From positions 97,209 to 161,208 of IMG/VR virus record IMGVR_UViG_3300037042_006682: DNA of 64,000 bases; one strand, given 5' to 3'. A program made the translations under genes and the position numbers. Of this stretch, positions 37,329-59,766 are shown one piece after another. How positions within the stretch are numbered: the first letter of the stretch is position 1; each line of letters begins with the position of its first letter. The notes beneath the pieces were generated by a model. That model had not been told where the DNA came from. It saw only the letters and a program-made list of their open reading frames with translations, and did not search any database. The DNA comes from a virus.

Positions 37329-40118
37329 CTATTCGATGACCCACACCGTCCCGCCACTCGTGTTCAGCCAGAACATCCCGTTGGTGCTCTGGTAGTACAA
37401 CTGTCCCTGCACCCCCGTCACCGTGCCGTTCGGGTTCACCGCCCCCGTGAGCGTCCCCGGCGCGATGACCAACTGATCGATCGTCGCCAGCGCGTGCTGC
37501 ACCGTGGTATCCGCCGCTGTGAGATTGCGCGAGAAGGTCCCCGCCGCGACCCCGAGGTACGCCGCCTTGTCCGTAAACGTGTAGCCCGGCGCCGTGAGGT
37601 TGTCGAAGGTCGTCCCCGCCTGGAGGAGGGGCCGCGCACTGGGCGCATCGAACGCCACCTGCGCCGGGGCCGCCCCCGTCGCGCCGTCCCACCCGAACTT
37701 GTAGCTGCCCAGCGCACTCAACTCGCAATCGCTGAGCCCCTGGCCGTCCCCCGTGGGGCCGCCCAACTTGCCCGCGTAGCCGCCCGGCGTCCCGCGCGGA
37801 TGCACATCCCACCGGATCGCCCCACTGAGGATGGTCCCGCGCACCGCCTGGAGCTGCACGCACCCCCGCACGTCCTGGGCGAACTCGCACCCCCGCACCG
37901 TGAGCCACAGCATGTTCTCGGCCGTCAGCACCGTGGCCTCGCGCTCGCCACCGAGCACGCCCCCGCTGCCTACGCACCCATTGGCCACCACCTTGAGCGG
38001 TCCCGTCCGGCGGCCCGCCGTGAGCCCCCCGCTAGCCGCCGCGAGCACGCTACCATCGAGGCGCACCCCCTCGGCGATCAACGTACCCACCACGTCCCCC
38101 AGCGTCGCCGGGTTCGCGTTCTTGTACTCTAACCCCGCGAGGAGCCCCGCCTGGCGGGCCGTCCCCGTCGCGAGCACGCAGGCCAGGTGGTACGTCGTCA
38201 AACTCTGCCCGTACCAGTCCTCGGGGCGGTAGTACCACTGGACCAACCCACTGATGAGCCACCGATCGCCCACCACCGCGATGGTCCGCCGTCTGGGCAG
38301 CGTCACGGGACCGGCGTAGGTCCCCGGCGCGAGCACGAACTGCACTGGCACATCGAACTCGGCGAACGAGATCGGCGCCGCCACGGTCCCCACCGCGTGC
38401 GTCAACGTCTGGTAGGGCTTCTGGACCGTCCCGGTGCCCGTCGTGTCACTGCCGTTGTGCACGTCTACGTGGACGTTGCCGAACCCCGTGGGGATCGGTG
38501 CCCCACTGGGGCTCAGCGCATCGAGCGTCGCCAGGGCCTTCTGCACCGTGTCGTCCGCAGCGCTCAGGTTGCCCGAGAACCCCGCGCTATCCACGTGCGT
38601 GCCGAGCGCGCGCTCCGTGAAGGCGTAGCCCCGGCCGCCCGGCGTGGTCCCCGCGTCAAAGTTGTCGAACTGCGGCACGCCCCCGCTGGTCAGCGCGCGC
38701 CACGAGTAGCTGTCGCACCACACGGCCGCGGGCTCGTCCATCGTCGGGTCGGTCCCCGCATAGCCCGCTTGGAAGGTGCTCCCGTTGGCAGCTGTGTGCG
38801 CGAGCCCCGGCGCGGGGCCATCGATCCAGCCGCGCGCGTAGGCCGCCCCGCTCGGCTGCAGGGCGTGGCTCACCACGCCGAGCTGGCAGTGGTCAAGGGC
38901 CCGCAGGCGCACGTTGCCCAGCAGGCGCCACCCGCTGAAGTCGCTCCAGCTCGCCACGAGGTCGACCGCGTTGGGGCTCCACGCCGCCGCCGCAGGCTCC
39001 GCCTCGCCGAAGATGCAGAGGTAGGGGCTCGTGCCGTGCGTGTCGACGAATCGGCACCGCTCGACCGCCAAGGCCATCGTCCCGCAGGCATCACCCGCTG
39101 TTACCGACCCCGATGCCTGGTTCGTGATGCGCCCGTCCCGCCACTCGATCCCCGCCAGCACGAGGCGCTTCTGGGCGGGCATCGTCGCCCCCGCCCCGAC
39201 GTTCAGGTTGTAGGCGCGCAACTGGCCCAACATCCGCGCCGTCACCGCCATGCCAGCCTGCGCGCCACAAAGCACCCCCGCGTCGCCGTAGATCCCCACC
39301 GTGGGCTGGTCCGCCACGAGGTCGAGGCCCAGGCTCGCGTACTGCGTCGGGCTGATCCCCCACTCCAGATCGCCGCTGATCACGTAGGCGGCGCCCCGCA
39401 GGATCACCGCCTGGCGCCGCGGCAGCGTCACCGCCCCCGCATAGGTGCCCGGCGCGAGCACGAAGATCAGGGGCACCCGGAAGGCCTCTGCCGTCGCCGC
39501 CACGGGCTGCGCGTTCGCCGCCACCACCAGCGTCTTGTAGGGCTTCGCCGGCGTACCGTCCCCGCTCGTGTCGCTCCCGTACACCGCATCGACGTAGACC
39601 ACGCCGTAGCCGCCGGGGATCGTGCCCCCGCCGCCGCCGCCGCTGCCCGCATGGGCGAACAGCACCGCCGCGACGCCCGGCACCATCTTCGCCGCGTTCC
39701 ACCACGTGATGCTGTAGTCGCCGTTGACGTAGCCCAGCACGCGGTGGTCGGGGTCGATGGGGACGCCGTTCTGCCACAGCTCCAGGAGGACGGTGGTCTC
39801 CGTCGTGGATCCCGCGGGCACGCGCGCCACCACCAGCCAATCCGGCTGGAGGGTCAGGGGCACCGCGCTGCTGATAATCATGGTGGTCTGCAGGGTGCGG
39901 CTCACGAGCCGCGCATCCCCCGCCAACACCAGGCGAAAACCGCCGCCATGGGGCGCGATCGTCGCCTCGGGCAGATCCTGGAAGACCCACGCCGCGGCCT
40001 CCAGCTGCTCGAAGATCAACGCGTCGATGGCCACGGCAAAGTCGCTAAACTGGTGCCACCACCCCTGGGCGTTCTCGTTCGGGTAGGGGACCTTGAATCG
40101 CGGGGTCTTCGCCGGCAT
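37329..40118 (-). CDS. Fibre/tailspike with shared adaptor and two beta-helix domains, 929 aa
   Basis: Residues 1-160 are the adaptor shared with the 547-aa and 320-aa proteins (TPRFKVPYP...AAAWVFQDLPEATI...NGVPIDPDHRVLGYV). Then two homologous pectin-lyase-like regions follow: the first opens with GSDTSGDGTPAKPYKTL and LAPGTYAGAVTLPRR, the second with GSDTTGTGTVQKPYQTL and LAPGTYAGPVTLPRR. Right-handed beta-helices of this kind form tailspikes that bind or cleave polysaccharide; no catalytic residue can be assigned by eye. The C-terminal part has ATIDQLV and a small tip. Confidence 0.8.
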   Translation of the reverse strand: MPAKTPRFKVPYPNENAQGWWHQFSDFAVAIDALIFEQLEAAAWVFQDLPEATIAPHGGGFRLVLAGDARLVSRTLQTTMIISSAVPLTLQPDWLVVARVPAGSTTETTVLLELWQNGVPIDPDHRVLGYVNGDYSITWWNAAKMVPGVAAVLFAHAGSGGGGGGTIPGGYGVVYVDAVYGSDTSGDGTPAKPYKTLVVAANAQPVAATAEAFRVPLIFVLAPGTYAGAVTLPRRQAVILRGAAYVISGDLEWGISPTQYASLGLDLVADQPTVGIYGDAGVLCGAQAGMAVTARMLGQLRAYNLNVGAGATMPAQKRLVLAGIEWRDGRITNQASGSVTAGDACGTMALAVERCRFVDTHGTSPYLCIFGEAEPAAAAWSPNAVDLVASWSDFSGWRLLGNVRLRALDHCQLGVVSHALQPSGAAYARGWIDGPAPGLAHTAANGSTFQAGYAGTDPTMDEPAAVWCDSYSWRALTSGGVPQFDNFDAGTTPGGRGYAFTERALGTHVDSAGFSGNLSAADDTVQKALATLDALSPSGAPIPTGFGNVHVDVHNGSDTTGTGTVQKPYQTLTHAVGTVAAPISFAEFDVPVQFVLAPGTYAGPVTLPRRRTIAVVGDRWLISGLVQWYYRPEDWYGQSLTTYHLACVLATGTARQAGLLAGLEYKNANPATLGDVVGTLIAEGVRLDGSVLAAASGGLTAGRRTGPLKVVANGCVGSGGVLGGEREATVLTAENMLWLTVRGCEFAQDVRGCVQLQAVRGTILSGAIRWDVHPRGTPGGYAGKLGGPTGDGQGLSDCELSALGSYKFGWDGATGAAPAQVAFDAPSARPLLQAGTTFDNLTAPGYTFTDKAAYLGVAAGTFSRNLTAADTTVQHALATIDQLVIAPGTLTGAVNPNGTVTGVQGQLYYQSTNGMFWLNTSGGTVWVIE

Positions 40119-40178: not shown

Positions 40179-40445
40179 TCACGGCACCGCGCGCACGATT
40201 TGAGGCACCTCGCGGTTGGCCGGACCACTATCCGGCGGGCACGCGATCCCCTCGCCCGCCTGCACCAGCCCCCCCGACACGTACATGGCCCACCCCCCGA
40301 TCGTCCGCTCCACCCCCGCCGCATCCAACACCAGGGAGGTCGTCCCCGGCACGCCCTGCGGGGCCTCGGCATCCGTGGCCAGGGATGTCGTCCCCGGCAC
40401 GCCCTGCGCCATCCCCCCGAGCACCGCCACGTTGTAGCTCGCCAT
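40179..40445 (-). CDS. Small repeat protein, 88 aa
   Basis: Begins MASYNVAVLGGMAQGVPGTT. A 16-residue unit (QGVPGTTSLATDAEAP then QGVPGTTSLVLDAAGV) occurs twice. The tail CPPDSGPANREVPQIVRAVP shares CPP and REVP with the 75-aa protein at 42.5 kb. Both lie between members of the receptor-binding array, so they may be small connectors or chaperones of those fibres. No family known to me. Confidence 0.6.
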   Translation of the reverse strand: MASYNVAVLGGMAQGVPGTTSLATDAEAPQGVPGTTSLVLDAAGVERTIGGWAMYVSGGLVQAGEGIACPPDSGPANREVPQIVRAVP

Positions 40446-40480: not shown

Positions 40481-41461
40481 TCACGGGATGGCCGGCTGGC
40501 TGCCATCCCATCCGATCAGCAGGTCGCCCATGACGATCCAGTCCCAGGGGTCGCCCGTCCCGCGCGCGTAGGCCCCGTCCGGCAGCACGCTCGGCGCCAG
40601 GTACATGTCCCAGGGCTCGCCCGGCTTGCCCCGCGACGCCGTGTTCTCCGAGATGAACCCCGTGGGCAGGAAGTTCCAGCACCCGTCCCCGTCCGGCCGG
40701 TTCAGCAGCGTCTCCGTGACGAGCCCGCCCTTCGCGGTCTCCCCGCTGAGCCGCAGCGTCGTCGTCGAGGCCGCCAGCGTCGTCTTGGGGCCCGCCGCCG
40801 CCGTCTGCACGAGGTTCGCGATCGTCGGCGCCTTCACGTACCCCACGTAGGGGTTCGTCCAGTACGCCTCGGGGTTCCGCGCCTTCTCGACCCACAGCAG
40901 CGCCTGCACCACCCCGCCGTTGCAGAGGAAGGCCCGCGTGCTCTGCCCATCCGCCGCCATGACCCGCAGCACGCCCCCGCTCCCCGTCGTGGGCAGCGCC
41001 GTGGGCAGGATCGCCCCCGCGAGCAGGGACACCGCATCGGTCGCCGTCGGCGCCGCCGTCGTACTACCGTCTGTGAATCCAGCGGCGGGCGAGATCGAGA
41101 TGTTCATGGATTGCCCCTGCGCCGACGCGATCGAGCAGTCGAGGAGGAGCTGGAGATAGCCCGGCGCCACCCCGACGTTCACCTGCTGAAGCACGATCCA
41201 GGAGCGCGCCCCGCTCGTCGCAAACGTGATCTTCGAGTAGTCCACCCAGCGGTCTAGCCCGTCGCTCACGCTGGCCGTCGCGCCGTCGCTCGATCCCCGC
41301 ACCGCCCAGGCATTCGGCCCCGCCTTGGCCCCATTGTTCCCGTACTGCAGGGCCTCCTTGAGGTCCCACCAGATCCACTTGTTCAGCGTCAGGATGTCGT
41401 ACGCCGCGCTCTGGTGGTAGAGCAGCTTCGCCACCCACGTCTTGGCCCGCGTCAGCGCCAT
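40481..41461 (-). CDS. Array paralogue 7, putative receptor-binding protein, 326 aa
   Basis: Begins MALTRAKTWVAKLLYHQSAA. Shows the full family pattern: AWAVRGSSDG, DGLDRWVDY, SWIVLQQV, TAAPTATDAVS, MAADGQSTRAFL, EKARNPEAYWTNP and a C-terminal DLLIGWDGSQ. Beta-rich throughout and without a signal peptide. It is closest in order of motifs to the 345-aa paralogue. The family has no name I know; the position among fibres implies a tail tip or head-fibre role. Confidence 0.7.
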   Translation of the reverse strand: MALTRAKTWVAKLLYHQSAAYDILTLNKWIWWDLKEALQYGNNGAKAGPNAWAVRGSSDGATASVSDGLDRWVDYSKITFATSGARSWIVLQQVNVGVAPGYLQLLLDCSIASAQGQSMNISISPAAGFTDGSTTAAPTATDAVSLLAGAILPTALPTTGSGGVLRVMAADGQSTRAFLCNGGVVQALLWVEKARNPEAYWTNPYVGYVKAPTIANLVQTAAAGPKTTLAASTTTLRLSGETAKGGLVTETLLNRPDGDGCWNFLPTGFISENTASRGKPGEPWDMYLAPSVLPDGAYARGTGDPWDWIVMGDLLIGWDGSQPAIP

Positions 41462-41470
41462 CGCGCCCTC

Positions 41471-42502
41471 CTAGTCGAGCACGACGGCCCCGCCGTCGCT
41501 CGCGTGCATGATGTCCCCCACGACCACCCACTGGCGGGTCCCGTCGTTCGGGTAGTAGTCGCCGTTCGCCATGTTCTGATGCACCCAGTAGGCATCTGAT
41601 AAACGCCCCATATAGCCGATCGACTGCGCACACGTCCCCACGATCCCCACGGGGCTACACATCCAGTTGCCGTTCGGGTCCGCCCCACCCAAGATCGCCT
41701 GCTTGCCGAGGGCCCCCGCCGTTCCAAACCCGTCCGCGCTGAGGTAGGCCGGGATGCCCGACACGACTCCCGCGCGTGTGAACAGCCCAATGCTCGCCTC
41801 GTTCAGATTGGCATACGTCGGCGTCTCGCTGTACCCCGCCAAGCACGGCTTGTCCCACCACGTCTTCGCCGCCTGGGGCTTCTCAAAGCACCACATGTGC
41901 AGCGTCCCCATCGCGTTGGAGGAGAACAGGATCCGCGTCTTGCTACGATCCGCCGAACTGAGGATGTTGAACCCCCGCGCCGCATCGCCGTAGTACGAAA
42001 ACCCCGCGTTCAGGGTGGACAGCATCGGCACCTGGTCGCTCGCGGTGGGCCGCACCGTCACGCTCCCCCCCGTGAAGCCCGCGCCGTAAGACTCGATCAA
42101 CACGATGGGGTACATCATCGATTCGGATGTCATCTCGGGGGCCAGGTAGATCTGGTAGCCCGCCCCATCCGCGCTGATCGCCGTGTTCCGCAGCACAATC
42201 CACGACATCTTGCCAACATGCGGCGCATAGGTCCATGTCCCCGTCACGGCGTGCATGTCGATCCACCGATCGACGCCGTCCATGCCCGCCGTGACGTTCA
42301 CGCCATCCCACCCGCAACTCCCCACGACGGTCCACCCCACCGTCTTCAGGGCCTCCTTCAGCAGGTAGATCATCTTGCGCATCTGCCGGACCTGCGTGTA
42401 CTCCGTCGGTCCGCGCGGCACCGCCGATGGCAAGTTGGCCGTCCCAGCGGGCACCCCGCCATAGACCCGCGTCCACGTGAACTCACGCGCTGGCGCCGTC
42501 AT
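41471..42502 (-). CDS. Array paralogue 6, 343 aa
   Basis: Begins MTAPAREFTWTRVYGGVPAG, a longer head than its relatives. Core: GWTVVGSCGWDG, GMDGVDRWIDM, SWIVLRNTAI, GFTGGSVTVRPTASDQ, SADRSKTRILF, EKPQAAKTWWDKP and C-terminal DIMHASDGGAVVLD. Ribosome site GGGAGGTG. Very similar to paralogue 4 in the N-terminal third. Confidence 0.7.
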   Translation of the reverse strand: MTAPAREFTWTRVYGGVPAGTANLPSAVPRGPTEYTQVRQMRKMIYLLKEALKTVGWTVVGSCGWDGVNVTAGMDGVDRWIDMHAVTGTWTYAPHVGKMSWIVLRNTAISADGAGYQIYLAPEMTSESMMYPIVLIESYGAGFTGGSVTVRPTASDQVPMLSTLNAGFSYYGDAARGFNILSSADRSKTRILFSSNAMGTLHMWCFEKPQAAKTWWDKPCLAGYSETPTYANLNEASIGLFTRAGVVSGIPAYLSADGFGTAGALGKQAILGGADPNGNWMCSPVGIVGTCAQSIGYMGRLSDAYWVHQNMANGDYYPNDGTRQWVVVGDIMHASDGGAVVLD

Positions 42503-42503
42503 C

Positions 42504-42731
42504 TCACACCTCCCGGCGCGGCCACCGCCGCGTCAAATAGGGCACCTCTCGAAGGATCTGCGCGTACCACGGGGGGCACGTCGCCCCGAGCGTCCCCTGC
42601 GCGGGATCCAGCGCGTAGCCCTCCATCCCCACCTGCGCCCCGCCCACCGCCGGGTCCACCCCATAGCTCGCGATCGTGAGCTGCGCCCCGCTGCTCGCGG
42701 GATCGACCGCATAGGCGTTCACGTTGGCCAT
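42504..42731 (-). CDS. Small repeat protein, 75 aa
   Basis: Begins MANVNAYAVDPASSGAQLTI. A 16-residue unit occurs three times: YAVDPASSGAQLTIAS, YGVDPAVGGAQVGMEG, YALDPAQGTLGA. The tail CPPWYAQILREVPYL resembles the tail of the 88-aa protein (CPP...REVP). Its stop is next to the start of paralogue 6, so it is co-translated with the array. Confidence 0.6.
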   Translation of the reverse strand: MANVNAYAVDPASSGAQLTIASYGVDPAVGGAQVGMEGYALDPAQGTLGATCPPWYAQILREVPYLTRRWPRREV

Positions 42732-42740
42732 CGCGCCTCC

Positions 42741-43778
42741 TCACGGCAGCATCAGGTGCGTGCCGTCCCACGGGACGATCATGTTGTAGAGGTTGATGAA
42801 CTGGCGCTCTCCCCCGCCCGTCGAGGCGATGTACTCGCCCAGCGGCATGCTCTGGGGCGCCAGCCACAGATCGAAAAACTCCCCGAGGCGCCCGCGCATC
42901 ACCGTCGAGCAACTGATGATGCCCGCTGGGGAGACCACCCACTCCCCGTTGAAGTCCGGCCGCTGCAGGGGCGCCTTGTTGATGATCCACCCGTAATAGA
43001 ACCCGCCGGGACCGATCCCCGAGATCCCCGTCCCCTCGGCCGTGAACCGCGCCGTGATCGGCGTGGCCCCTATGCGCGTCCGGAGGGGATCCCCGCCAAC
43101 CTCGCCCGCAAACCACGCCCACATCGTCTGGCTATACCCCGTGGCTACCGAAAACAGACACGGATTGGGCCACCAACTCACGGGATTCTTGACCTTCTCC
43201 ATGAAGATCAACGCCAGTGGCGGCCATCGCCCCACCTCAATGCCCCCGCCTTGCGAGAAGAATACCCGCGTGACCTCGCCATCCGTGCTCTTCACGCAAT
43301 TCACCCCCACCGTGTAGGGCAAGAATTGATTGGTCGACGTGTGCCAGACATTCAGCCACGTCACCTCATCACTGGCCGTCGGCCGCACGATCGTCGTGCC
43401 GCCCGCGAACCCCGCACTAAAACTTGCCACAAGGTTCGCGTACAACGCCGTGGTCACCTTCATGTCGATGAGGAGCTGGTAGTACCCCGGCGCGAGTCCC
43501 ATCGCGGGCTGCCGGAGGATGATCCAGGAGTGCGCCGCCGTCGTGCTAGCGATAATCTTGTTGTAGTCCGTCCAACGGTCCACCCCATCCATCCCGTAGG
43601 TGCTGCCGTCGCACGACCCCATAACCTCCCAAGCCCCCGGCCCCCCCTTGATGCCACCGCTGCCATATAACAGGGACTCCTTGAGCGCCCAGAGATTCCC
43701 CCTCGCGTTTCCCGTCTCAGAGGAGAACGACACCGACACCATCTTGGTGAAGTAGGTTTTGATCGCCGTCAGCGCCAT
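42741..43778 (-). CDS. Array paralogue 5, 345 aa
   Basis: ATG 43778 gives MALTAIKTYFTKMVSVSFSS; a longer upstream frame is not used. Core: AWEVMGSCDG, GMDGVDRWTDY, SWIILRQPAM, GFAGGTTIVRPTASDE, KSTDGEVTRVFF, EKVKNPVSWWPNP and C-terminal IVPWDGTHLMLP. All family blocks are present in order. Confidence 0.7.
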   Translation of the reverse strand: MALTAIKTYFTKMVSVSFSSETGNARGNLWALKESLLYGSGGIKGGPGAWEVMGSCDGSTYGMDGVDRWTDYNKIIASTTAAHSWIILRQPAMGLAPGYYQLLIDMKVTTALYANLVASFSAGFAGGTTIVRPTASDEVTWLNVWHTSTNQFLPYTVGVNCVKSTDGEVTRVFFSQGGGIEVGRWPPLALIFMEKVKNPVSWWPNPCLFSVATGYSQTMWAWFAGEVGGDPLRTRIGATPITARFTAEGTGISGIGPGGFYYGWIINKAPLQRPDFNGEWVVSPAGIISCSTVMRGRLGEFFDLWLAPQSMPLGEYIASTGGGERQFINLYNMIVPWDGTHLMLP

Positions 43779-43788
43779 ACCATCCTCC

Positions 43789-44850
43789 TCAGTCCAGCGG
43801 TACGGGGTTGCCGTCATTCGGCAACAACAGATCGCCGAACACGAAGAAATCGAAGGTCGCCGTCGGCAGGTACTCACCCGTTGCCATCGCTGCGGGCACA
43901 AACCAGAGATCCTCGCGCCGCCCAAACCACCCCGCAATCGCGCCGAACGCACTCACGCCCACACGCGTCGCGATCCAATTGCCCCCGCCGTCGACCGTCT
44001 GCGTGTAATCCAACTGGCCCAGCGCCGCCCGCTCGTAGTAGTTGTTCGCGCACCCCGTCGTCTCGGAGGTATTGGCCACCCCTGTCTGGTAGTCACCTAC
44101 CCGCGTGACCATGCGGGTCAGGGTATCCGTCTGGCCCCCCTGCAAAGAAAACGTCTCCGCCCGGTAGTATGCCCCCGCTACCGTCGCGATATATGGCTTG
44201 TCCCACCACGCTCGACGCCCCGCCACGGCCGCCACCTCGAAGCACCACACGTAATTCAGGTAATGATCCGCCCCCTCGTGGCATGTCATGCAGATCCGCG
44301 TCATCGTGTGATCGGTGGTCCACAGGCAATTAACACCCACTGTTGCAGTCGAACTAGAGTGCACCGCCGATCGATAGTATGCGTACTCCCCTTTATCCAA
44401 GATGACCTGCTCATCGCTCGCCGTCGGCCGCGCCGTCGTCGTCCCCCCCGTGAAGCCCCCGCCCCACGAGTCCACGAGCGTCATGCAATGCGTGTTGTTC
44501 ACCGTCGCATTGCACGCGATGCAGATCTGATAACCCTGCCCACTCGCGTTGATCGCCGTCTGGCGCAGCACGATCCACGAGAAATAGCCGCCCGTGGTCT
44601 CCGTCCAGCGCACCGCCACGGTATCCGGCCAACGGTCCACGCCATCCATGCCACTCGCCCAGACCGCCCCCACGTAGCCGCAACTCCCCACGACGGTCCA
44701 CCCCGCGCCGAGCAGCAGCGTCTTGATGGCCCACATGTTCGCGCGGTGCCCCGGCGAGAAGTTCGTCTGGCCCGCCTGTGCCACAGGCTTATCTGCTACC
44801 GTCACCTGGCGGTACGCCCGCTGCCACGTCTTCACCTTCGTGATCGCCAT
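43789..44850 (-). CDS. Array paralogue 4, 353 aa
   Basis: Begins MAITKVKTWQRAYRQVTVAD. Core: GWTVVGSCGYVG, GMDGVDRWPDT, SWIVLRQTAI, GFTGGTTTARPTASDE, TTDHTMTRICM, AVAGRRAWWDKP, GRREDLWF and C-terminal DLLLPNDGNPVPLD. It is the first of the four-member sub-array that follows the 320-aa adaptor protein. Confidence 0.7.
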   Translation of the reverse strand: MAITKVKTWQRAYRQVTVADKPVAQAGQTNFSPGHRANMWAIKTLLLGAGWTVVGSCGYVGAVWASGMDGVDRWPDTVAVRWTETTGGYFSWIVLRQTAINASGQGYQICIACNATVNNTHCMTLVDSWGGGFTGGTTTARPTASDEQVILDKGEYAYYRSAVHSSSTATVGVNCLWTTDHTMTRICMTCHEGADHYLNYVWCFEVAAVAGRRAWWDKPYIATVAGAYYRAETFSLQGGQTDTLTRMVTRVGDYQTGVANTSETTGCANNYYERAALGQLDYTQTVDGGGNWIATRVGVSAFGAIAGWFGRREDLWFVPAAMATGEYLPTATFDFFVFGDLLLPNDGNPVPLD

Positions 44851-44853
44851 CGC

Positions 44854-45816
44854 CTACACCTCGAAGCCCAGGCCGCGCAGGGCCACGTGGACCGTCACGG
44901 GGGTGGCCCCCGCGTTGCTGACCCGCCAGTAGAGGGTGCCCCCCGTGAGCCCCTCGATCCCAGCCGGGTTGCGGTCCACCCAGGGGCCGTCCACCGCCGG
45001 GTTCCACCGCGCCTCGACCCCCGCGTAACCGATCTGGTAGAGCAGGGTCGGCCCGCCCGTGAAGGCCGCGTCCCCCAGTTCGATGTCGACCGCCTCGGAG
45101 GCCCCCGCCGTCACCGTCGCCACGAGGCTGTAAAGGACCCCCTCGCCCACCCCGATGACGACCGCCCCCAGCGCCACCTCGCCGTTCGGCACGGCCGCCT
45201 CGAACGTCGCTGTCCAGCGCCGCGCATGCAGGTCCCCGTCGTCCAGGTGCTCGCGCACCTCCTGGGCCATCGACACGTGGGCGGTGCCCCCATCGCTGGA
45301 GAGCCCGCGCGCCCAGATCGCCTCCGTCGCCACGCCGCCCCCCGCGTGCGAGAAGAGCCGCGCGGTCTCCCCGACCGTCAGGACGCTCGCGTTCCACCAC
45401 GCGATCGAGGAGTCCGCCCGCACGTAGCCCAGCACGCGGTAGTCCGCCTCGATGGGCACCCCGTTCTGCCGCAGCTCCAGGGCCGTCGTCGCCGCGGCCC
45501 GCGCCCCGCTTGTCACGCGCACCACCACGACCCACCCCGGCACGAGGGCCAGGGGGCTCGCATAGCCAATGGTCACCTGCGTCTGGTAGGTGCGGCTCAG
45601 CGCGATGCAGGGCCCCAGCAGGCGCAGCTGATAGCCGCCCCCCGCGGCCTCGATCGTCGCCTCCGGCAGCGCCACGAAGGTCCACGCGTTGGCCTCCAGC
45701 CCCCCCAGCATGGCCGTGTCGATGCCCGTCGCGAAGTCCTGGAAGACCTCCCACCAGCTCTCCGCCGTGCTGCCCGGATAGGGGAACTTGAACCGTGGGG
45801 TCTCCTGGCGCGCCAT
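44854..45816 (-). CDS. Adaptor-headed tail protein, 320 aa
   Basis: Residues 1-165 are the shared adaptor (MARQETPRFKFPYPGSTAES, then AWTFVALPEATIEAAGG and NGVPIEADYRVLGYVRADSS), about as close to the 547-aa fibre as paralogues get. The C-terminal 150 residues form a small beta domain (LYSLVATVTAGASEAVDIEL) rather than a long shaft. Probably a short fibre or the attachment base for the four paralogues downstream. Confidence 0.7.
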   Translation of the reverse strand: MARQETPRFKFPYPGSTAESWWEVFQDFATGIDTAMLGGLEANAWTFVALPEATIEAAGGGYQLRLLGPCIALSRTYQTQVTIGYASPLALVPGWVVVVRVTSGARAAATTALELRQNGVPIEADYRVLGYVRADSSIAWWNASVLTVGETARLFSHAGGGVATEAIWARGLSSDGGTAHVSMAQEVREHLDDGDLHARRWTATFEAAVPNGEVALGAVVIGVGEGVLYSLVATVTAGASEAVDIELGDAAFTGGPTLLYQIGYAGVEARWNPAVDGPWVDRNPAGIEGLTGGTLYWRVSNAGATPVTVHVALRGLGFEV

Positions 45817-45825
45817 CCTGTGTTC

Positions 45826-46005
45826 CTACTCCTCGGTCCTCGTGAGGATCCCGCCGTAGCCGCCCGCCTGGTTGATCGTCAACTCGACGGTGATCGGCGT
45901 GCCATCTTCGGTCGCCGTCGGATCCTCGGCGATCTGCGCCACGTACTCCGTCATGTAAAACGGCGGGAGCATCCCCGTAGGGATCCAACTGGTACGCGCG
46001 ACCAT
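45826..46005 (-). CDS. Small protein, 59 aa
   Basis: A clean short gene: ATAGGAGGTGAC immediately before the ATG is one of the best ribosome sites in the window. The product MVARTSWIPTGMLPPFYMTE continues with an acidic turn and a beta pair (GTPITVELTINQAGGYGGI). It joins the two sub-arrays of paralogues and precedes the 320-aa adaptor gene. Family unknown. Confidence 0.6.
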   Translation of the reverse strand: MVARTSWIPTGMLPPFYMTEYVAQIAEDPTATEDGTPITVELTINQAGGYGGILTRTEE

Positions 46006-46013
46006 GTCACCTC

Positions 46014-46928
46014 CTATAACACCAACGCGGTGCCGTCATTGCCTAGCACCATGTTGCCAATGACCACCTGTGTCTTGATGTCATTCCCAGGGCCAGGGAA
46101 GGTATCGCCCGTAAGCAACTGCGTCGGTGCCCACCAAGCATCCGCGCAATATCCATAAAGTCCTACGTTACCAACGCGATAGCCAGTCCCATAACAAACC
46201 ATAGGATGCAACGGCCACTTACCATCATTGTCCCCCGAGGCACCTACTGCGGTCGCAATTAAAGAATTTACAGAAAGGTAAATGGGCACTTTTAGACCAT
46301 CTACAATACAATATAAATAATCGTAATCACTCGCCAATGCTGTCTTTTCACTAACTGTCGCAAGATGCGGACTGGAAAACCACGCAGGGGGATCCACTGG
46401 ACGATCAAACATCATATATCCCTGAACCGTCGTAGGGCCGATGAACAGACGCGTACACTCAAAATCAGACGAATTAAAGACGTTAGCTGACAAGGTTGTC
46501 AACGCCGACGTCGCCTTCCACCACGTGTTAATCTGATAAGAAAAAGTCGATGTCGGTTTGTACTGTAACGACCCCCCCGTAAACCCCACCACGGAAATGT
46601 CACAATTGGCACGCTCTGTCGCCCCAGCCATAAAAAAATCAAACAACACCTGAAATCCCGTCGTGATGTGGTCATTCTGCAACACCACCCACGAATGATT
46701 AACGCCCGCTGCTCCACCAACAATATGCGCCGGAGTGTCCGCTGTAATATTATCCCCCGCACCAGCGGTATCCACCCCATTGCTAGAGGACACTACCGTC
46801 CAACCACAATTGGCAGCCAGGTGCTTGTAGATACGCTCAAACAAGATTTTGTGCGCATTTTGCGAGGAGGACCCCGTGGCCGTCAACCGCGTCTTCGTCC
46901 ACACCTTGCTATTGGAAATTTCAGCCAT
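46014..46928 (-). CDS. Array paralogue 3, 304 aa
   Basis: ATG 46928 gives MAEISNSKVWTKTRLTATGS, overlapping the end of paralogue 2 by 8 nt. Core: GWTVVSSSNGVD, SWVVLQNDHI, VGFTGGSLQYKPTSTF, SSDFECTRLFI, DRPVDPPAWFSSP and C-terminal NMVLGNDGTALVL. Its DNA, like that of paralogues 1 and 2, is less GC-rich than the rest of the array. Confidence 0.7.
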   Translation of the reverse strand: MAEISNSKVWTKTRLTATGSSSQNAHKILFERIYKHLAANCGWTVVSSSNGVDTAGAGDNITADTPAHIVGGAAGVNHSWVVLQNDHITTGFQVLFDFFMAGATERANCDISVVGFTGGSLQYKPTSTFSYQINTWWKATSALTTLSANVFNSSDFECTRLFIGPTTVQGYMMFDRPVDPPAWFSSPHLATVSEKTALASDYDYLYCIVDGLKVPIYLSVNSLIATAVGASGDNDGKWPLHPMVCYGTGYRVGNVGLYGYCADAWWAPTQLLTGDTFPGPGNDIKTQVVIGNMVLGNDGTALVL

Positions 46929-47985
46929 TAAACACCATACTCGTGCCATCGCTTCCCAAGAGCAGATCTCCGTGCGTGAACAAGCCCATATCAGAAAGCG
47001 TAGATGGCACATAAAAATAGGGCGCCAAGGATCCTTGGTTCGTCAACCCTCCACCCGTACCAGACCGATCCCTGAAAACATAAGAGATGAAATACAAATC
47101 AAACATCTGACCCAAAATACCTAAAACAGTCGCATGCCGCGAATAAGGGATCACTTGTGAAACACAAATCGAACCATCATGAAACACTCGGTTGCCCAAT
47201 ATACTATTGCTTTGCAGCGGACTCATCATGCTCACGGGTAAAGCCGCACCATGATAACACCGCGCAACCCCCAGCGCCGTCGGCGTTGAACACCAATAAT
47301 AGCTATCTGGTATTCGTCCACCGTGTGTATCTGTGCCCATCCAATTCCACACCGTCCCCGTTGTCCCCGATGGATACATGATCACGATATAGGGCACTGT
47401 GAGCCAAGGCGTCGGATCCTGGAGCTTCTCAAAAAACCATGGACCACATGACCCCACAAAACTACCAGTGCTATTGTGAAACAAGACCCGCGTGCACTCC
47501 CCGTCGGACGACGTGAGCACAATCGCACTGAGGGTCGACGTGGTCACATTGCAATAATCAAGATTCGTCAGCAAGGTTTGCTCGCTGCCCACCGCCGTGG
47601 GGCGCGTAGTCAACATGCCGTTGCTGTTGTATCCCTGGTGCGTAACGTACGCGCACATGTACTGCTTGTTCGTCGCCGTCGTATTAATCCACTCGAAGCA
47701 CACCGCAAAGTCTGGCGCAATGGCGGGATTCTTAAGCACGATCCACGAGTGCGCGGTTCCCGCCGCCGCGCAGTAGATGTCCGCTGGCACCTGGAGGTAA
47801 TCGGTCAGCAACCCCACTGAAACACGATTGCTCGACGCGACCACGGACCAGTATCCCGTCGCCACCATCGCGTTCTTGACACCAATGAAGGTCCGCGCCC
47901 ATACGTCCCCAATCGTCGGCGCCGTGGTTCCGACAAAGGGACTCAACCGCACCGACGCCCACGTCTTAACTAAGGTGATCGCCAT
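46921..47985 (-). CDS. Array paralogue 2, 354 aa
   Basis: Begins MAITLVKTWASVRLSPFVGT. Core: YWSVVASSNRVS, SWIVLKNPAI, MLTTRPTAVGSEQ, SSDGECTRVLF, EKLQDPTPWLTVP, GQMFDLYF and C-terminal DLLLGSDGTSMVFNG. The ATG follows the stop of paralogue 1 directly. Confidence 0.7.
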   Translation of the reverse strand: MAITLVKTWASVRLSPFVGTTAPTIGDVWARTFIGVKNAMVATGYWSVVASSNRVSVGLLTDYLQVPADIYCAAAGTAHSWIVLKNPAIAPDFAVCFEWINTTATNKQYMCAYVTHQGYNSNGMLTTRPTAVGSEQTLLTNLDYCNVTTSTLSAIVLTSSDGECTRVLFHNSTGSFVGSCGPWFFEKLQDPTPWLTVPYIVIMYPSGTTGTVWNWMGTDTHGGRIPDSYYWCSTPTALGVARCYHGAALPVSMMSPLQSNSILGNRVFHDGSICVSQVIPYSRHATVLGILGQMFDLYFISYVFRDRSGTGGGLTNQGSLAPYFYVPSTLSDMGLFTHGDLLLGSDGTSMVFNG

Positions 47986-48999
47986 TTAACACACCTTTAC
48001 GATGCCGTTGGGAGCCCCCGTGGCCATGCACCCCATACGAATCAACCCTACTGGATTGCCAACGGTGGCATACCGAAAACAAGCAGCATGCGTACAGGGA
48101 GCGGAGTACAAATCTACCGCTCTGCCTAAGACCCCCACGACACCGTTGGTATATCCCTCGTAAAAAATGGGATACAACAACGACGCCCCATTCGCGGATA
48201 CCCCACTGGCCATCGGCGTCCACCCCACCCATCGCGTATCCCCCATCATCGAACTCATCAACAAATTGATCATCCGGGATTCTACGACCGCCACACATCC
48301 ACGATACGACTGAGCTGGATTATATGTCCACCCGCCCCCCCCTGACATCACGCCGCTTACAGCCGCAAACGCGGCAAGGACAAAGGGATCGGTCCACACC
48401 GCGTGCACATTGGCCGGTCGCTCAAGCGTAATGACCGCACCGCCGTAGGAGGAAAAAAACCCGAAATCATCCCCGCAACTCCCACAATGCGTATTGAAAA
48501 AACGAAAACACTGGCTATCCGACGAATACAACAAGGTCGTCCCCGTACAATCTAGGACGACATCCACAAAATTGACATTGTCACGCACCGCCTCGACCCC
48601 ATTGGCCGTCGGACTCAACATGCGCGTCCCATTCATGGCATAGCCCTGCGCACACGCCCCAAACCGCGCATTGATACTATCCACCTGGCTGGTCGTCGGC
48701 CCGCGATCCAAAATCACCGAAAATCCCGGCATAAACGCCGCATTCTGCAACACCACCCATGAATGTGGTGTTCCCGCGATCCCATAAATCACATCCGACA
48801 CGCTGAGCCAGTAATCCCCTGCCCCCGTCCCCAGCACCGTCCCGTTGCTACTTTGCACTACCGACCATCCCGCCGACACCAACATCCGCTTCATGTTCAA
48901 CAACGTCGCTGCCGTACGCAGCAAAGTGGTTGTATGCGTCACCCAATCCGTCGGGATGGCCGCCGCAAGCCAGGTCTTCTTCAACGTGATCTGAGGCAC
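47986..48999 (-). CDS. Array paralogue 1, 337 aa
   Basis: Begins MPQITLKKTWLAAAIPTDWV. Most diverged member: GWSVVQSSNGTV, SWVVLQNAAF, LSPTANGVEAV, SSDSQCFRFFN, a Cys-rich insertion (CGSCGDDFG), LERPANVHAVWTDP, GRAVDLYS, and a C-terminus GCMATGAPNGIVKVC. It is first in the array, 9 nt after the 547-aa fibre gene. Confidence 0.7.
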   Translation of the reverse strand: MPQITLKKTWLAAAIPTDWVTHTTTLLRTAATLLNMKRMLVSAGWSVVQSSNGTVLGTGAGDYWLSVSDVIYGIAGTPHSWVVLQNAAFMPGFSVILDRGPTTSQVDSINARFGACAQGYAMNGTRMLSPTANGVEAVRDNVNFVDVVLDCTGTTLLYSSDSQCFRFFNTHCGSCGDDFGFFSSYGGAVITLERPANVHAVWTDPFVLAAFAAVSGVMSGGGGWTYNPAQSYRGCVAVVESRMINLLMSSMMGDTRWVGWTPMASGVSANGASLLYPIFYEGYTNGVVGVLGRAVDLYSAPCTHAACFRYATVGNPVGLIRMGCMATGAPNGIVKVC

Positions 49000-49008
49000 C
49001 GCACCCTC

Positions 49009-50652
49009 CTACTTGTTGTAGACCGCCCACCCGATCGCCAACCCCGCCTGGCCCGTCACGGTCACGCGCATGGTGTCATCCCCATCGTTGATCGCCAACG
49101 CGATGTCCCAGTCCGCCGTGCCCCCGCTGGCGTCCGTCTGGTCGACCACGGTGTAGATCGGCGTCACGCGCACCCACGACGACACCCCTGTGAGCGTCCG
49201 CGTCGCCACCGCCCGAATCTCCCACACCTTGGTCTTGTCGGTGATCGCCTCGCGGGCCACCGCCGTCAGCGCAAACGAGGTCACGGAGTTGCCGGTCAGC
49301 GCGTACCGCGTCGAGGACACCCCGCCGAGGAAGATCTCCGTCGGCGTGTTGCTCCCCGTGACGCCCGACCAGCAGAGGGACCCCGCGCCGATGTACGCCT
49401 TGTTGATCGCGTCGATGAGCGAGCTGCACGCGAAGATGAAGTCCAGGACCCCCGTGTTCGTCATCGGTAGGTTCGTCACTGGCCCGAACCCGCCCGTGTA
49501 GCGCCCATCCTCGAGCGTCATCTCGCCGTCGGCCTTGAGCGAAAGGTCTCCCCCTGCCGTCACATCAATCGCCGCGTCGGCAGCGATATTCATCGCCGCA
49601 CCCGACGTGAGGTCTAAGTCACCGGACGAGGTGGACAGATCTAACGTCGTCCCAGCCGAGACGCCGATCGCCCCCGAAGCTGCCGTGACGTTGATCCCCC
49701 CGCCCGCCGCCGTGAGATCAAGCACCCCATCCGAATAGATGTCCCGACTACCCGTGCCGCCCATCTCGAGCGCGTGCCCATCGGCATCGTTGTTCGTGAC
49801 CGTGACGGGCGCCCCACCGTCGGGGATCACGATCTCGTGGCCCAGGTCATACGCTTCCTGGAGCGACCCGCCGCCCCGCTGGAGCTTCCAGCGCCAATGC
49901 AGCAAGTCGGGGTCGTTCAGGAAGACCGCGTCCAGGAAGTCCCCCCGCACGTAGGCCGCCCAGCCCTCGACCGCGTGCTCGTGCTCCCATGCGGTGCCCG
50001 TCCACTCCACGATGTCGTTGACCAGGGCGCCCACCCCCCACCCCGCATGCACGGGGGCCGCCGCGTAATCGAGGATGTACCGATCCCCCACCGTGGGGCC
50101 CACCGGCGGCGGCGCCGTGGGGTCCACGATGGCCAGCACGCGGGGGCGCCGCACGCTGACCTCGCCCCCGCCCCCGCCCGCGAAGGCGAAGAGCTGGCGC
50201 GTCTCCCCCGGCGCGAGGACGCTCGCGTTCCACCACGCGATGCTGTAGTCGTCGCGCACGCAGCCCAACACGCGGTAGTCGGGGTTGACCGGCACGCCGT
50301 TCTGCCACAGCTCCAGGGCCGTCTCCGCGCTCGCCTTGGCCCCGCTCGTCACGCGGGCCACCACCATCCACGCCGGCGTCAGCGCCAGGGGCGTCGCGTG
50401 CGCGATCGTCAGGTAGCTCTGGAAGGTGCGGCTCGCCACCACGCAGGGGCCCAGCAGGCGCAACTGGTAGCCGCCCCCCGCGGCCTCCACCGTCGCCTCG
50501 GGCAGGGCCACGAAGGCCCAGGCGTTGCCCTCCATGACCCCCAGGAAGGTCGTGTCGATGCTCAGCGCGAAGTCCTGGAAGGTCTCCCACCAGCTCTGCG
50601 CCGTGTCCGTGGGGTAGGGCAGCTTGAACCGTGGGGTCTCCTGGCGTGACAT
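49009..50652 (-). CDS. Adaptor-headed tail fibre, 547 aa
   Basis: Residues 1-160 are the shared adaptor (MSRQETPRFKLPYPTDTAQS ... AWAFVALPEATVEAAGG ... NGVPVNPDYRVLGCV). Residues ~175-240 form a DUF2793-like module (PPPVGPTVGDRYILD, GWGVGALVNDIVEWTGTAWE). Then comes a repetitive beta shaft of short DLTAAGGGINVTAASGAIGV units and a C-terminal globular domain. It starts directly after the J gene stop, the place of the main tail fibre in many myoviruses, so the adaptor probably docks on the baseplate. Confidence 0.75.
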   Translation of the reverse strand: MSRQETPRFKLPYPTDTAQSWWETFQDFALSIDTTFLGVMEGNAWAFVALPEATVEAAGGGYQLRLLGPCVVASRTFQSYLTIAHATPLALTPAWMVVARVTSGAKASAETALELWQNGVPVNPDYRVLGCVRDDYSIAWWNASVLAPGETRQLFAFAGGGGGEVSVRRPRVLAIVDPTAPPPVGPTVGDRYILDYAAAPVHAGWGVGALVNDIVEWTGTAWEHEHAVEGWAAYVRGDFLDAVFLNDPDLLHWRWKLQRGGGSLQEAYDLGHEIVIPDGGAPVTVTNNDADGHALEMGGTGSRDIYSDGVLDLTAAGGGINVTAASGAIGVSAGTTLDLSTSSGDLDLTSGAAMNIAADAAIDVTAGGDLSLKADGEMTLEDGRYTGGFGPVTNLPMTNTGVLDFIFACSSLIDAINKAYIGAGSLCWSGVTGSNTPTEIFLGGVSSTRYALTGNSVTSFALTAVAREAITDKTKVWEIRAVATRTLTGVSSWVRVTPIYTVVDQTDASGGTADWDIALAINDGDDTMRVTVTGQAGLAIGWAVYNK

Positions 50653-52779
50653 TTACTTGATCTCGCTGAGCGCGAGCGTCCCGCGCTTGATGATGTAGCT
50701 CGCCGGGGTCATCACGTTGCCGTCCACGTCCACGAAGCCCTCGTGGCCCGGCGCCGCCAGCGTCACGTTCGCGTAATCCATGCCCTTCGTCGCCGCCTTG
50801 ATGGTGTCGTGCACGGTCTGCTTGTAGAGGGGCTGGTTGAAGTCGCGCCCCCGCAGGACCTCCAGCAGCGCCTGCTCGATGTCCGCGAGCACCTCGGCCG
50901 CCACGTAGCTCGGCAGCACCTTGACCGCCACCGCCACGTCCACCGGCACGAGCATCGCGCTGCCGTCCGTCACCTGCACGAGCTGCGTGACCTCCTTGAT
51001 CCCGTCGATGTAGGCCTGCATCCCGTAGATGAGGCCCGCCGCCGGCGCCACGTAGTCCCCGTCCCCGTTCACGCTCACGATGGGGACCTGCACGTAGTTC
51101 GCCTTGCAGTCCGCATCGAACAGCGTCGAGAGGTGCGCTTGGAGGTCGACGAGCACTGCGAGGATGTCCGCCTGGAGCTGCGCCGCGCTCCCCGGCAGGG
51201 GCGCGATGGCCTCGGCCGCGTTGCCCACCGCCGTCACGGCCGTGCCCGCGAGGCCCAGCAGCGTGGTCAGGTACTGCGCCATCGTGACCTGGCCCTCGCC
51301 CGTTGGCGTGAGCAGCTGCTGCATGGCGAACCCATAACCGTCGAGCTTGGTCGCCGCCGCCCCGCCGTTGCTGAGGCTCGTGCTGATCGTGCCCCCCTGC
51401 GCCGCCAGCGTCCGCGAGTAGTTCGCCAGCGTCGTGTCGCTGGGGTAGGTGGCCTTGATGTAGTTGTCGAGGTCCGTCAGCGTCGTGCCCATCGCCTTAT
51501 AGGCCGCGTCCCCCGTCGTCATCTCCACCTGGAGCTGCTGCGCCACCGCCCGCACGTTGGCCGCCTGGACCTCCAGGGCGCTCTTCAAGAACCCCATCTC
51601 GGCGAGAAGCACCTGCATCTCCGCGAGAATGCCCTGCGCCGTGACGATGTCCGCCGCCGCCGCCGCCTCGGCCGGGGCCACGAGCAGCAGGTAGTTCGCC
51701 AGATAGCCATCGATCCGCTCGCACTCCCCGACCAGGATCGCGTCCTCCTCGGAGGCCCGCACGTTGATCGCGTAGCCCTTCGCCACGCGCCCGTAGAGGG
51801 GGTCGGAGAACCCGTTGACCTGCGCCTGGTAGTCGGTCTGCGTGATGGCCGCCCCGCGCGCCGCAAAGGCGTAGGGGGCCAGCTTGCGGGCCTCATCTGG
51901 GGTCTCGGGGTCCGCCCCGCCGCTCGCCCCCAGCGGGTTCGTGCAGGCGATCTTGATGGCCGCCCCGCCGACGCTCAGCACGTCGGTCGCGCTCGCCACC
52001 GTGCCCGCCGCGGCCCGCCCCGTGGCCCCGTGGATCAGCGTGTACTGGATCTTCACATCCGACCCGGCCTCGGGGATGTTCCCCGCCACGCCATCCCCGC
52101 ACGCCACGGCCGGGGGGTCGTAGAGGTAGTCCACCTCGTACTGGTTCGTCTGCGCAAAATCGAGGAAGTCGTTCTCGGCCCACTCCGCGCCGTCGATCCA
52201 CACGCGCACGCTCCCCTGCGCGACCCAGATCCCGTTCGCGGGGTCCCCGCCCTGCATGCGGAAGCGCTGGTTCTGCGTCCCATCCCCCGTGTAGCCCACG
52301 GTCCGCGTGGTGCCCTCGCGGCACGCCACGGTGATCGTCGCGGTGCCCGGCGCGAGGAAGGTCGGCGCCACGGTCTCGAAGACCAACCCCGATGGCCCCG
52401 CAAAGCGGAACCCCGCCTGGAGCTGCGCGGGCGCCGGGATCGCCGGGGTGAACGTCAGGTCGAGATCGACCGTCGCCGCCGCCGCGGGCCGCATCTTGTA
52501 GCCGACCTGCTTGACCAGCTTGGCCACCGCGGAGTGCGTGCGCGCCGTGTCGAGGTAGCAGTCGCTCGCCACGCGGTCCATGTACCAGCAGAGCTGCCCC
52601 ACCGCGTTCGCCACGAGGTCGATGAGCATGATGCCCACGCTCGTCGAGGCGTAGTCGTTGTAGTCGCTCACGTATTCGACCTTGAGCCGCCGCAGCAGGC
52701 TGTCGAAGATCGAGGCGTAGTCCTTCGCCGCAAACTTTACGGCGTTCAGAGGCTTGCGGTCCGCTACGGGGACTCCCAT
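50653..52779 (-). CDS. Baseplate J-like wedge protein, 708 aa
   Basis: N-terminal region MGVPVADRKPLNAVKFAAKD, VSDYNDYASTSVGIMLIDLV, then LCWYMDRVASDCYLDTARTH is the J/gp6-type start. The central motif PDEARKLAPYAFAARGAAIT plus DYQAQVNGFSDPLYGRVAKG is the J signature. A helical insertion (about residues 350-560) makes it longer than P2 gpJ. The C-terminal ADIEQALLEVLRGRDFNQPL with YANVTLAAPG matches the J end. It forms the baseplate periphery to which fibres attach. Confidence 0.85.
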   Translation of the reverse strand: MGVPVADRKPLNAVKFAAKDYASIFDSLLRRLKVEYVSDYNDYASTSVGIMLIDLVANAVGQLCWYMDRVASDCYLDTARTHSAVAKLVKQVGYKMRPAAAATVDLDLTFTPAIPAPAQLQAGFRFAGPSGLVFETVAPTFLAPGTATITVACREGTTRTVGYTGDGTQNQRFRMQGGDPANGIWVAQGSVRVWIDGAEWAENDFLDFAQTNQYEVDYLYDPPAVACGDGVAGNIPEAGSDVKIQYTLIHGATGRAAAGTVASATDVLSVGGAAIKIACTNPLGASGGADPETPDEARKLAPYAFAARGAAITQTDYQAQVNGFSDPLYGRVAKGYAINVRASEEDAILVGECERIDGYLANYLLLVAPAEAAAAADIVTAQGILAEMQVLLAEMGFLKSALEVQAANVRAVAQQLQVEMTTGDAAYKAMGTTLTDLDNYIKATYPSDTTLANYSRTLAAQGGTISTSLSNGGAAATKLDGYGFAMQQLLTPTGEGQVTMAQYLTTLLGLAGTAVTAVGNAAEAIAPLPGSAAQLQADILAVLVDLQAHLSTLFDADCKANYVQVPIVSVNGDGDYVAPAAGLIYGMQAYIDGIKEVTQLVQVTDGSAMLVPVDVAVAVKVLPSYVAAEVLADIEQALLEVLRGRDFNQPLYKQTVHDTIKAATKGMDYANVTLAAPGHEGFVDVDGNVMTPASYIIKRGTLALSEIK

Positions 52780-52792
52780 CGTTAGCTCCTTC

Positions 52793-53209
52793 TCACGGCC
52801 CGGTCGGGGCGCCCTGGATCGGCACCTGCTGCTGGTACACCTGGTTGTTGATCCGGTACACCACGTCGAGCACGATCGCCGTGTCCTCCAGGCCCACGTC
52901 CTTGCCTGTCCGCGCCTCGACTGACAATACCTCAGCGCGGGGCTCGAACAAAGCGATGGCCCGCGCCGTCACGGCCCCCACGCGCGCCTGCGTGAGCGGA
53001 TCGAGGTTGTCAAAGACGAACGCCTGCACGCTCGTCCCGAGGGCCCCGCGCATCACGCGCTCCCCCACGCTCGTCGTCATGAGCGCCTTGATCGAGTTGA
53101 AGACCACGGCGTCCAGCCCCTGCACCATCATCGGGAAGGCCTGGCTCCCCACCCGGAAGGGGTACGCGATGCTCCGCAGCACCATCGGCGTCGTCGTCGG
53201 CACCGGCAT
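52793..53209 (-). CDS. Baseplate wedge protein, gp25/W-like, 138 aa
   Basis: Shows the gp25/GPW lysozyme-like wedge pattern: LMTTSVGERVMRGALGTSVQ, then ALFEPRAEVLSVEART (the conserved EPR) and a C-terminal VLDVVYRINNQVYQQQV. Length is typical. Its ATG shares one base with the TGA of the proline-rich gene (TGATG). In contractile systems this protein starts sheath assembly at the baseplate. Confidence 0.85.
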   Translation of the reverse strand: MPVPTTTPMVLRSIAYPFRVGSQAFPMMVQGLDAVVFNSIKALMTTSVGERVMRGALGTSVQAFVFDNLDPLTQARVGAVTARAIALFEPRAEVLSVEARTGKDVGLEDTAIVLDVVYRINNQVYQQQVPIQGAPTGP

Positions 53210-59532: not shown

Positions 59533-59766
59533 CTACCGCCGTCGTCGCGCCCGCGCCGTGCTCGCCTCGCGCTGCCCCGCGCGCCGCTGCTCCATCTCCA
59601 TCTTCTCCCGCAGCAGCCGCTGGCGCCGGCTGTAGGGCATCGCCATCGCGTCGGTGTAGTTCAACCCCATGTGCTCGATGAGGGAGAACACATCCGACTC
59701 TAGCGCCCCGACGCTGCCGACGGGAAGAAAAAACCCGGCTGTGACACGTCCAGGCTCGCCGTCCAC
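59533..59766 (-). CDS. Frameshift extension of the tail assembly chaperone
   Basis: This frame overlaps the end of the 287-aa gene by 67 nt and continues to 59533. Taken alone it could only start at a GTG without a ribosome site. Entered from the upstream gene by a -1 shift at GGGTTTT it adds FLPVGSVGALESDVFSLIEH, MGLNYTDAMAMPYSRRQRLL and a basic tail. This matches the G/GT or E/E' design of tail chaperones upstream of tape measure genes. The fusion product would be about 342 aa. Confidence 0.7.
   Translation of the reverse strand: MDGEPGRVTAGFFLPVGSVGALESDVFSLIEHMGLNYTDAMAMPYSRRQRLLREKMEMEQRRAGQREASTARARRRR

Follow-up and report, generated by a model that had tools for sequence, protein, structure and literature searches.

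In phage JBD30, each of the three tail fibres is reported to consist of three gp47–gp48 heterodimers, in which the two proteins have similar folds, and the fibre is described as embracing the type IV pilus (PMC11445458). A comparable pair, gp67 and gp68 of phage Lydia (Mesyanzhinovviridae), comprises two tandem fibre proteins with a JBD30-like fold, for which heterodimers were proposed (PMC11946847). Here, we analyzed the final 64 kb of a virus record of 161,208 bases (IMG/VR record IMGVR_UViG_3300037042_006682, positions 97,209 to 161,208). This stretch of 64,000 nucleotides (nt) is referred to as the window, and positions are those of the window unless another record is named. It contains seven paralogous genes, denoted P1–P7, on the minus strand between positions 40481 and 48999. 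These paralogues probably build a many-part fibre that catches bacteria, with parts that are swapped between related viruses.

The JBD30 proteins gp47 and gp48 (Casadabanvirus; PDB 8rk3/8rk5; PHROG 687) are paralogous to each other (hhalign E 5.6e-18) and resemble P1–P7 in that proteins of ~300–350 amino acids (aa) are encoded by tandem paralogous genes, a few nt apart, in a tail module. However, JBD30 has two such genes, whereas the window phage has seven. JBD30 is also a siphophage, in which gp47 and gp48 are located between the tape measure and distal tail protein genes. The Lydia proteins differ likewise in being a siphophage pair, with a receptor that is described as predicted only. In the literature, covered mostly by titles and the beginnings of abstracts, we found no seven-copy array of the gp47 fold.

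P1–P7 Form Two Blocks of Homologous Genes

All seven open reading frames (ORFs) are real, lie on the minus strand and are homologous. In their order on that strand, they encode P1 (47986..48999; 337 aa, with a GTG start), P2 (46921..47985; 354 aa), P3 (46014..46928; 304 aa), P4 (43789..44850; 353 aa), P5 (42741..43778; 345 aa), P6 (41471..42502; 343 aa) and P7 (40481..41461; 326 aa). The start of P3 was corrected from 47012 to 46928, where the ATG overlaps the stop codon of the preceding gene, and that of P5 from 43952 to 43778, where the ATG follows a GGAGG sequence. Hidden Markov models (HMMs) built from six of the proteins recovered the seventh with E-values ranging from 4e-30 for P1, the most divergent paralogue, to 1e-65 (2.5e-33 for P3 and 9e-36 for P2), compared to 0.004–0.4 for the best of 200 shuffled sequences each. 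No neighbouring protein was found among the top four matches listed for these models. Pairwise identities are ~20–36%, and all-against-all BLASTP, with identities of up to 36%, gave E-values of ~1e-51 for P5–P7 and ~1e-48 for P4–P6. A recent duplication of the paralogues was ruled out by this divergence, which is evident from both the alignment and the tree and agrees with the first-pass annotation of the sequence, in which the genes were considered too divergent to be recent copies.

The same annotation had described a single tandem run with minimal spacing and a common set of motif blocks, and each of these points held in part. The array is not a single run, because a putatively coding ORF of 59 aa (45826..46005) and the 320-aa gene U2 (44854..45816) separate P3 from P4, resulting in two blocks, P1–P3 and P4–P7. 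The spacing is indeed 0 to ~10 nt, or a short overlap, at P1/P2, P2/P3, P4/P5 and P6/P7, but is ~238 nt at P5/P6. (This gap, at 42503–42740, has the same length in the close relative G002, described below.) Seventeen alignment columns are invariant across the seven proteins, but P1 lacks the DRW motif and the C-terminal DLLLxxDG motif. When 46 family members were aligned, just four columns (W, P, D and D) remained invariant.

No Pfam or PHROG family covers any of the seven proteins. (P7 had sub-threshold matches to Herpes_UL1, E 0.16, and phrog_11600, E 0.06, which we dismissed as chance matches.) The family HMM had no match among the PDB sequences, and none of the seven matched PHROG 687 at E up to 1, whereas gp47 and gp48 both did. 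PHROG 687 was also absent among the families matched by the A8 set (19 rows, one of which is a non-member, a glycosyltransferase).

The Predicted Fold Matches JBD30 gp47

P5 and P1 were modeled with AlphaFold2, with a predicted local distance difference test (pLDDT) score of 81.3 and a predicted template modeling (pTM) score of 0.86 for P5, and 82.4 and 0.87, respectively, for P1. Compared to solved structures, both models matched chain K of 8rk3, with Z = 16.1 over 258 aa for P5 (next entry, 4.3) and Z = 16.6 over 256 aa for P1 (next entry, 5.2). Chain K has 317 residues, numbered 2–318, in agreement with gp47 (318 aa) but not with gp48 (307 aa) or gp54 (382 aa), and a sequence search found the gp47 sequence in 8rk3. 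An initial assignment of the match to the tripod receptor-binding protein gp54 was dropped, since both gene lengths and the sequence search point to gp47. The match is strong, and the two of seven paralogues that were modeled are predicted to have the gp47 fold. The first-pass annotation had noted that differing folds would speak against the homology; the separate predictions for P5 and P1 gave one and the same fold.

No tail-spike fold was among the fold matches listed for either model. Matches in the BFVD database include proteins of Atu_ph07, phage G (gp371) and Sphingomonas phage MMDA13. Two others, A7KUT2 and A7KUT4, may be proteins of Bacillus phage 0305phi8-36, judging by their accession series.

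Bacillus phage G encodes three tandem paralogues, gp371, gp372 and gp373 (280, 290 and 285 aa), that are ~30% identical, and the P1 model matched the fold of gp371 better than that of any other BFVD entry (E 1e-5). They differ from the window family in that there was no sequence match between the two (hhalign E 0.2), while the gp371–gp373 profile had a weak match to the gp47/gp48 set (E 1.3e-4, probability 53%). The giant phage G offers a cultured system in which the array idea can be tested. In the phage G record (L090, 18965–21568), these three genes carry no annotated function.

Relatives and Copy Number

The nearest relatives of the window phage are G001, a 34-kb contig, and G002, a record of 168,532 bases. 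G002 has all seven paralogues in the same order, and G001 has P1–P4 and the beginning of P5 at the contig edge. Profile scans revealed more distant relatives in IMG/VR contigs of 24 kb to 354 kb. Over 21 records, 14 had 2–4 copies and six had one, while G022 had one interrupted match; these record counts are not lineage counts, because four records (G015, G016, G017 and G021) look near-identical. Seven is the highest copy number met in the family. The expectation in the first-pass annotation that seven versions of a protein would be rare in phages is borne out to this extent, but phages with multiple adhesins are described elsewhere (PMC8432352).

When 50,697 phage records were searched by tblastn with five family members, no match was returned. 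Scans of genome contigs found a single relative, a lone member of the family whose contig was assigned by binning to a metagenome-assembled genome of Acidimicrobiia (L076, 7863–8801). This contig could represent a prophage or a misbinned phage.

PF04865 (Baseplate_J) was matched in 13 of 19 records searched, and in nine of these 13 the match was within ~3 kb of the family genes. In one record (L036, 843–7538 and 7539–12503), four tandem family members directly follow a 2231-aa protein with Baseplate_J and kelch matches, and three of these four have an inserted domain that is Ig/FN3-like in appearance.

Duplication History

In a tree based on 46 rows and 326 columns, which includes long branches, the 18 members from the window group formed a clade (support 96/92). 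Within it, P1–P3 (100/98) and P4–P7 (95/92) formed separate clades that correspond to the two blocks. P4 grouped with P6 (100/98) and P5 with P7 (99/97), and trees in which P4+P5 or P6+P7 were held as clades were rejected by the approximately unbiased (AU) test (p 0.031 and 0.005, respectively; the groups were chosen after inspection of the tree). The order P4–P5–P6–P7 is thus A–B–A′–B′, indicating the duplication of a two-gene unit. Between phages, the orthologues of P1–P7 cluster 1:1, and their order is kept.

Grouping of the copies by phage was clear for the window group (96/92), I57, K59, M60 and N61, and weaker for A32 (93/83) and J58 (85/64). For H56 and Q67, per-phage clades were not recovered, yet not rejected (p 0.53 and 0.55). 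B33 and F53 have no per-phage clades, and instead share two old paralogues. The grouping by phage in most of the other multi-copy phages points to repeated expansions that were independent of each other, or to concerted evolution; gene conversion could produce a similar pattern.

Allele Replacement between Close Relatives

The window phage and G002 are nearly identical in other genes of the region, with aa identities of 99% for the wedge gene J (synonymous divergence, dS, 0.03), 99% for U2 (dS 0.05) and 96% for U3 (dS 0.16). In contrast, the P genes differ considerably: P1 is 51% identical (dS 2.1), P2 66% (dS 1.2), P3 56% (dS 2.9) and P6 62% (dS 1.05), where dS values above 1 are saturated; P4, P5 and P7 are 87%, 78% and 92% identical, respectively. 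For P5, near-identity with the G002 orthologue is confined to roughly the last 100 residues, and the last 351 nt of P7 are identical to those in G002. Because P5 and P7 match G002 in their 3′ parts, the breakpoints of exchange are located inside the genes.

The GC content at third codon positions (GC3) of P1–P3 is 0.54–0.66 in the window and G001, compared to 0.89–0.92 in G002 and mostly 0.91–0.97 in the flanking genes. For P6, the relationship is reversed, with a lower value in G002 (0.68) than in the window (0.88). The divergence of the P genes together with this shift in GC3 indicates that slot alleles have been replaced from outside sources, while their position in the tree stays with the slot. 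P1–P3 were apparently replaced as a set. The possibility that the genes are targets of a diversity-generating retroelement was rejected, as no reverse transcriptase (PF00078) was found in any of the three records of the window group, one of which, G001, is a 34-kb fragment.

Exchange also involves the genes U1 and U2, which precede the two blocks. Compared to G001, the N-terminal ~150 residues of the two proteins have traded places: they are 95% and 94% identical crosswise and 71–74% identical to their own orthologues, such that the window U1 N-terminus is 95% identical to that of G001 U2 and 71% to that of G001 U1. The C-termini of U1 and U2 remain with their own G001 orthologues (94% and 88%). 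This sequence pattern suggests that the two putative anchors are interchangeable.

A Model for a Multi-Slot Fibre

We consider it likely, with appreciable room for doubt, that P1–P7 are heteromeric subunits of receptor-binding (side) tail fibres that undergo slot-specific allele exchange. By analogy with JBD30, the paralogues would pair into heterodimers, and different gene copies would therefore fill different fixed slots of composite fibres. There would be two fibre modules, block 1 (U1 and P1–P3) and block 2 (U2 and P4–P7, itself a duplicated two-gene unit), in which U1 and U2 are possible baseplate anchors through the N-terminal domain that they have in common. Changing receptors would be met by an exchange of slot alleles, or of a block that is co-adapted, among related phages, and not by interchanging slots. 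In this model, P1–P7 would be located in the virion and recognize a receptor. The gp47 fold, the gp47–gp48 heterodimer fibre, the location among baseplate and tail-fibre genes, and the host-range-like turnover provide indirect backing for the receptor-binding and heteromultimer functions proposed in the first-pass annotation. There was no support for decoys, a further suggestion made there. A pilus receptor, as in JBD30, is a rather doubtful extrapolation from the same analogy. DLP_3, which also has a gp47-like gene, is named as a pilus-binding phage (PMC9206674).

A number of observations weigh against this model. The array is located behind a baseplate wedge J-like gene, rather than having a tape measure gene on one side and a distal tail protein gene on the other, whereas a gp47-like gene comes next after the tape measure gene in JBD30 and in all ten of the further siphophages fetched (picked from 60 listed of 392 matching records). 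In each of these ten, which include DLP_3, a second gene (307–353 aa) comes after the gp47-like gene. In the family itself, tens of kb separate the J gene from the family genes in G003, G004 and G009. The hhalign alignment to gp47/gp48 is colinear at the C-terminus, but scores are marginal, with E 0.003 (probability 10%) for the gp47 set and E 0.07 for the gp48 set and probabilities of 1–10% overall, and the family HMM had no match in JBD30, YuA, DLP_3 or Atu_ph07 (0/4). Foldseek alone ranks 8rk3_K first, yet with an E-value of just 0.006, and the P5 and P1 models are not independent, because both were built from the same set of 46 sequences. Finally, dN/dS of the orthologues is 0.14–0.39, and there is thus no gene-wide positive selection. 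The array is best filed as an expanded variant with the gp47 fold, with no claim of membership in the gp47/gp48 family.

We considered the possibility that the paralogues are interchangeable adhesins, each forming its own homomeric tip, with all of them displayed and no pairing needed, so that the host range would be broad, as it is in phages with multiple tailspikes. The high divergence of the paralogues, the presence of up to seven copies and the existence of single-copy records (6/21, plus the interrupted match in G022) would be consistent with such an arrangement, and several different adhesins per phage, with module exchange, are described for the Ackermannviridae (PMC11414711, PMC8432352), although these have up to four tail spikes that recognize polysaccharides. 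However, slots and their order are strictly 1:1 orthologous, the seven proteins have no anchor domain of their own, the common N-terminal domain being on U1–U3, and heterodimers are formed by the proteins with the closest known fold (PMC11445458). We regard this alternative as unlikely; the interchangeable tips envisaged in the first-pass annotation are less favoured, given that every one of the seven positions retains its own orthologue across phages.

Less probable still is a role as structural ornaments, that is, whisker- or collar-type fibres that attach reversibly and with low specificity to the surface and do not recognize a specific receptor. Unusual fibres do occur on jumbo phages, such as the whiskers of CBB (PMC5259590) and the curly fibres of 0305phi8-36 (PMC2147016). 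The concentration of allele replacement in the P genes, with U2, U3, the small ORF S and J barely changed, is a better fit to specificity determinants. An array of surface-modifying hydrolases is very improbable. The nitrilase triad is Cys-Glu-Lys, and no conserved set of this kind is present over 46 members, of which W, P, D and D are the sole invariants. No Pfam family exceeded its cut-off in the seven proteins, and none, nitrilase included, was found in gp47 (L077, 4083–5039) or gp48 at E up to 1, even though gp47 has been assigned to the nitrilase superfamily (PMC11445458).

Returning to the heteromeric fibre, we can extend it only tentatively to the family as a whole: an uncharacterized family of large phages may use 2 to 7 gp47-fold paralogues to build heteromeric fibres with multiple slots. 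Such an expandable gripping fibre would be based on a two-protein repeat, multiplied several times independently, in which slot orthologues are kept and specificity is changed by allele replacement in one slot or in one block that is co-adapted. A family of tandem genes that has no name, and whose large phages are mostly uncultured, is now tied to a solved fibre with a known receptor, and its function thereby becomes directly testable. Receptor-binding diversity may stem from many fixed slots and slot-by-slot allele exchange, while the baseplate hardly changes. The array also provides a pointer to where one should look for the genes that determine host range in such phages.

Surrounding Genes

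On the minus strand, the array is preceded by baseplate genes, and the order continues with U1, P1–P3, the 59-aa ORF, U2, P4–P7, an 88-aa ORF, U3 and more fibre genes. The baseplate genes include a hub-like gene (59700–60563, minus strand), a gp25-like gene (52793–53209, minus strand) and the J/gp6-like wedge gene (50653..52779, minus strand; 708 aa), which adjoins the array module upstream and matches a PHROG baseplate wedge family (E 2e-25); its match to PF04865 was partial and below cut-off. The window phage is probably a contractile-tail phage, a reading that rests mainly on these baseplate genes, because the tail sheath family PF17482 was matched in just four of 19 family records, in one of them over the cut-off.

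U1 (49009..50652, minus strand; 547 aa) and U2, on the same strand, are the head genes of blocks 1 and 2, respectively, and have in common with U3 (37329..40118, minus strand; 929 aa) an N-terminal domain of ~150 aa that is 72% identical between U1 and U2 and ~52% identical to U3 (BLASTP). U3, the third carrier of this domain, matches a tail protein family (phrog_4577, E 1.3e-12). Each block ends with a small ORF on the minus strand, the 59-aa ORF behind P3 and the 88-aa ORF S (40179..40445; 99% conserved in G002) behind P7; these may encode a chaperone or a fibre cap.

Farther along the window, a 1523-aa protein (25244–29815) has repeated matches to baseplate wedge and virion structural PHROGs and is located in a region of clearly lower GC content (0.53–0.63). 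An Ant-like anti-repressor gene (60826–61917) is found within the tail gene cluster.

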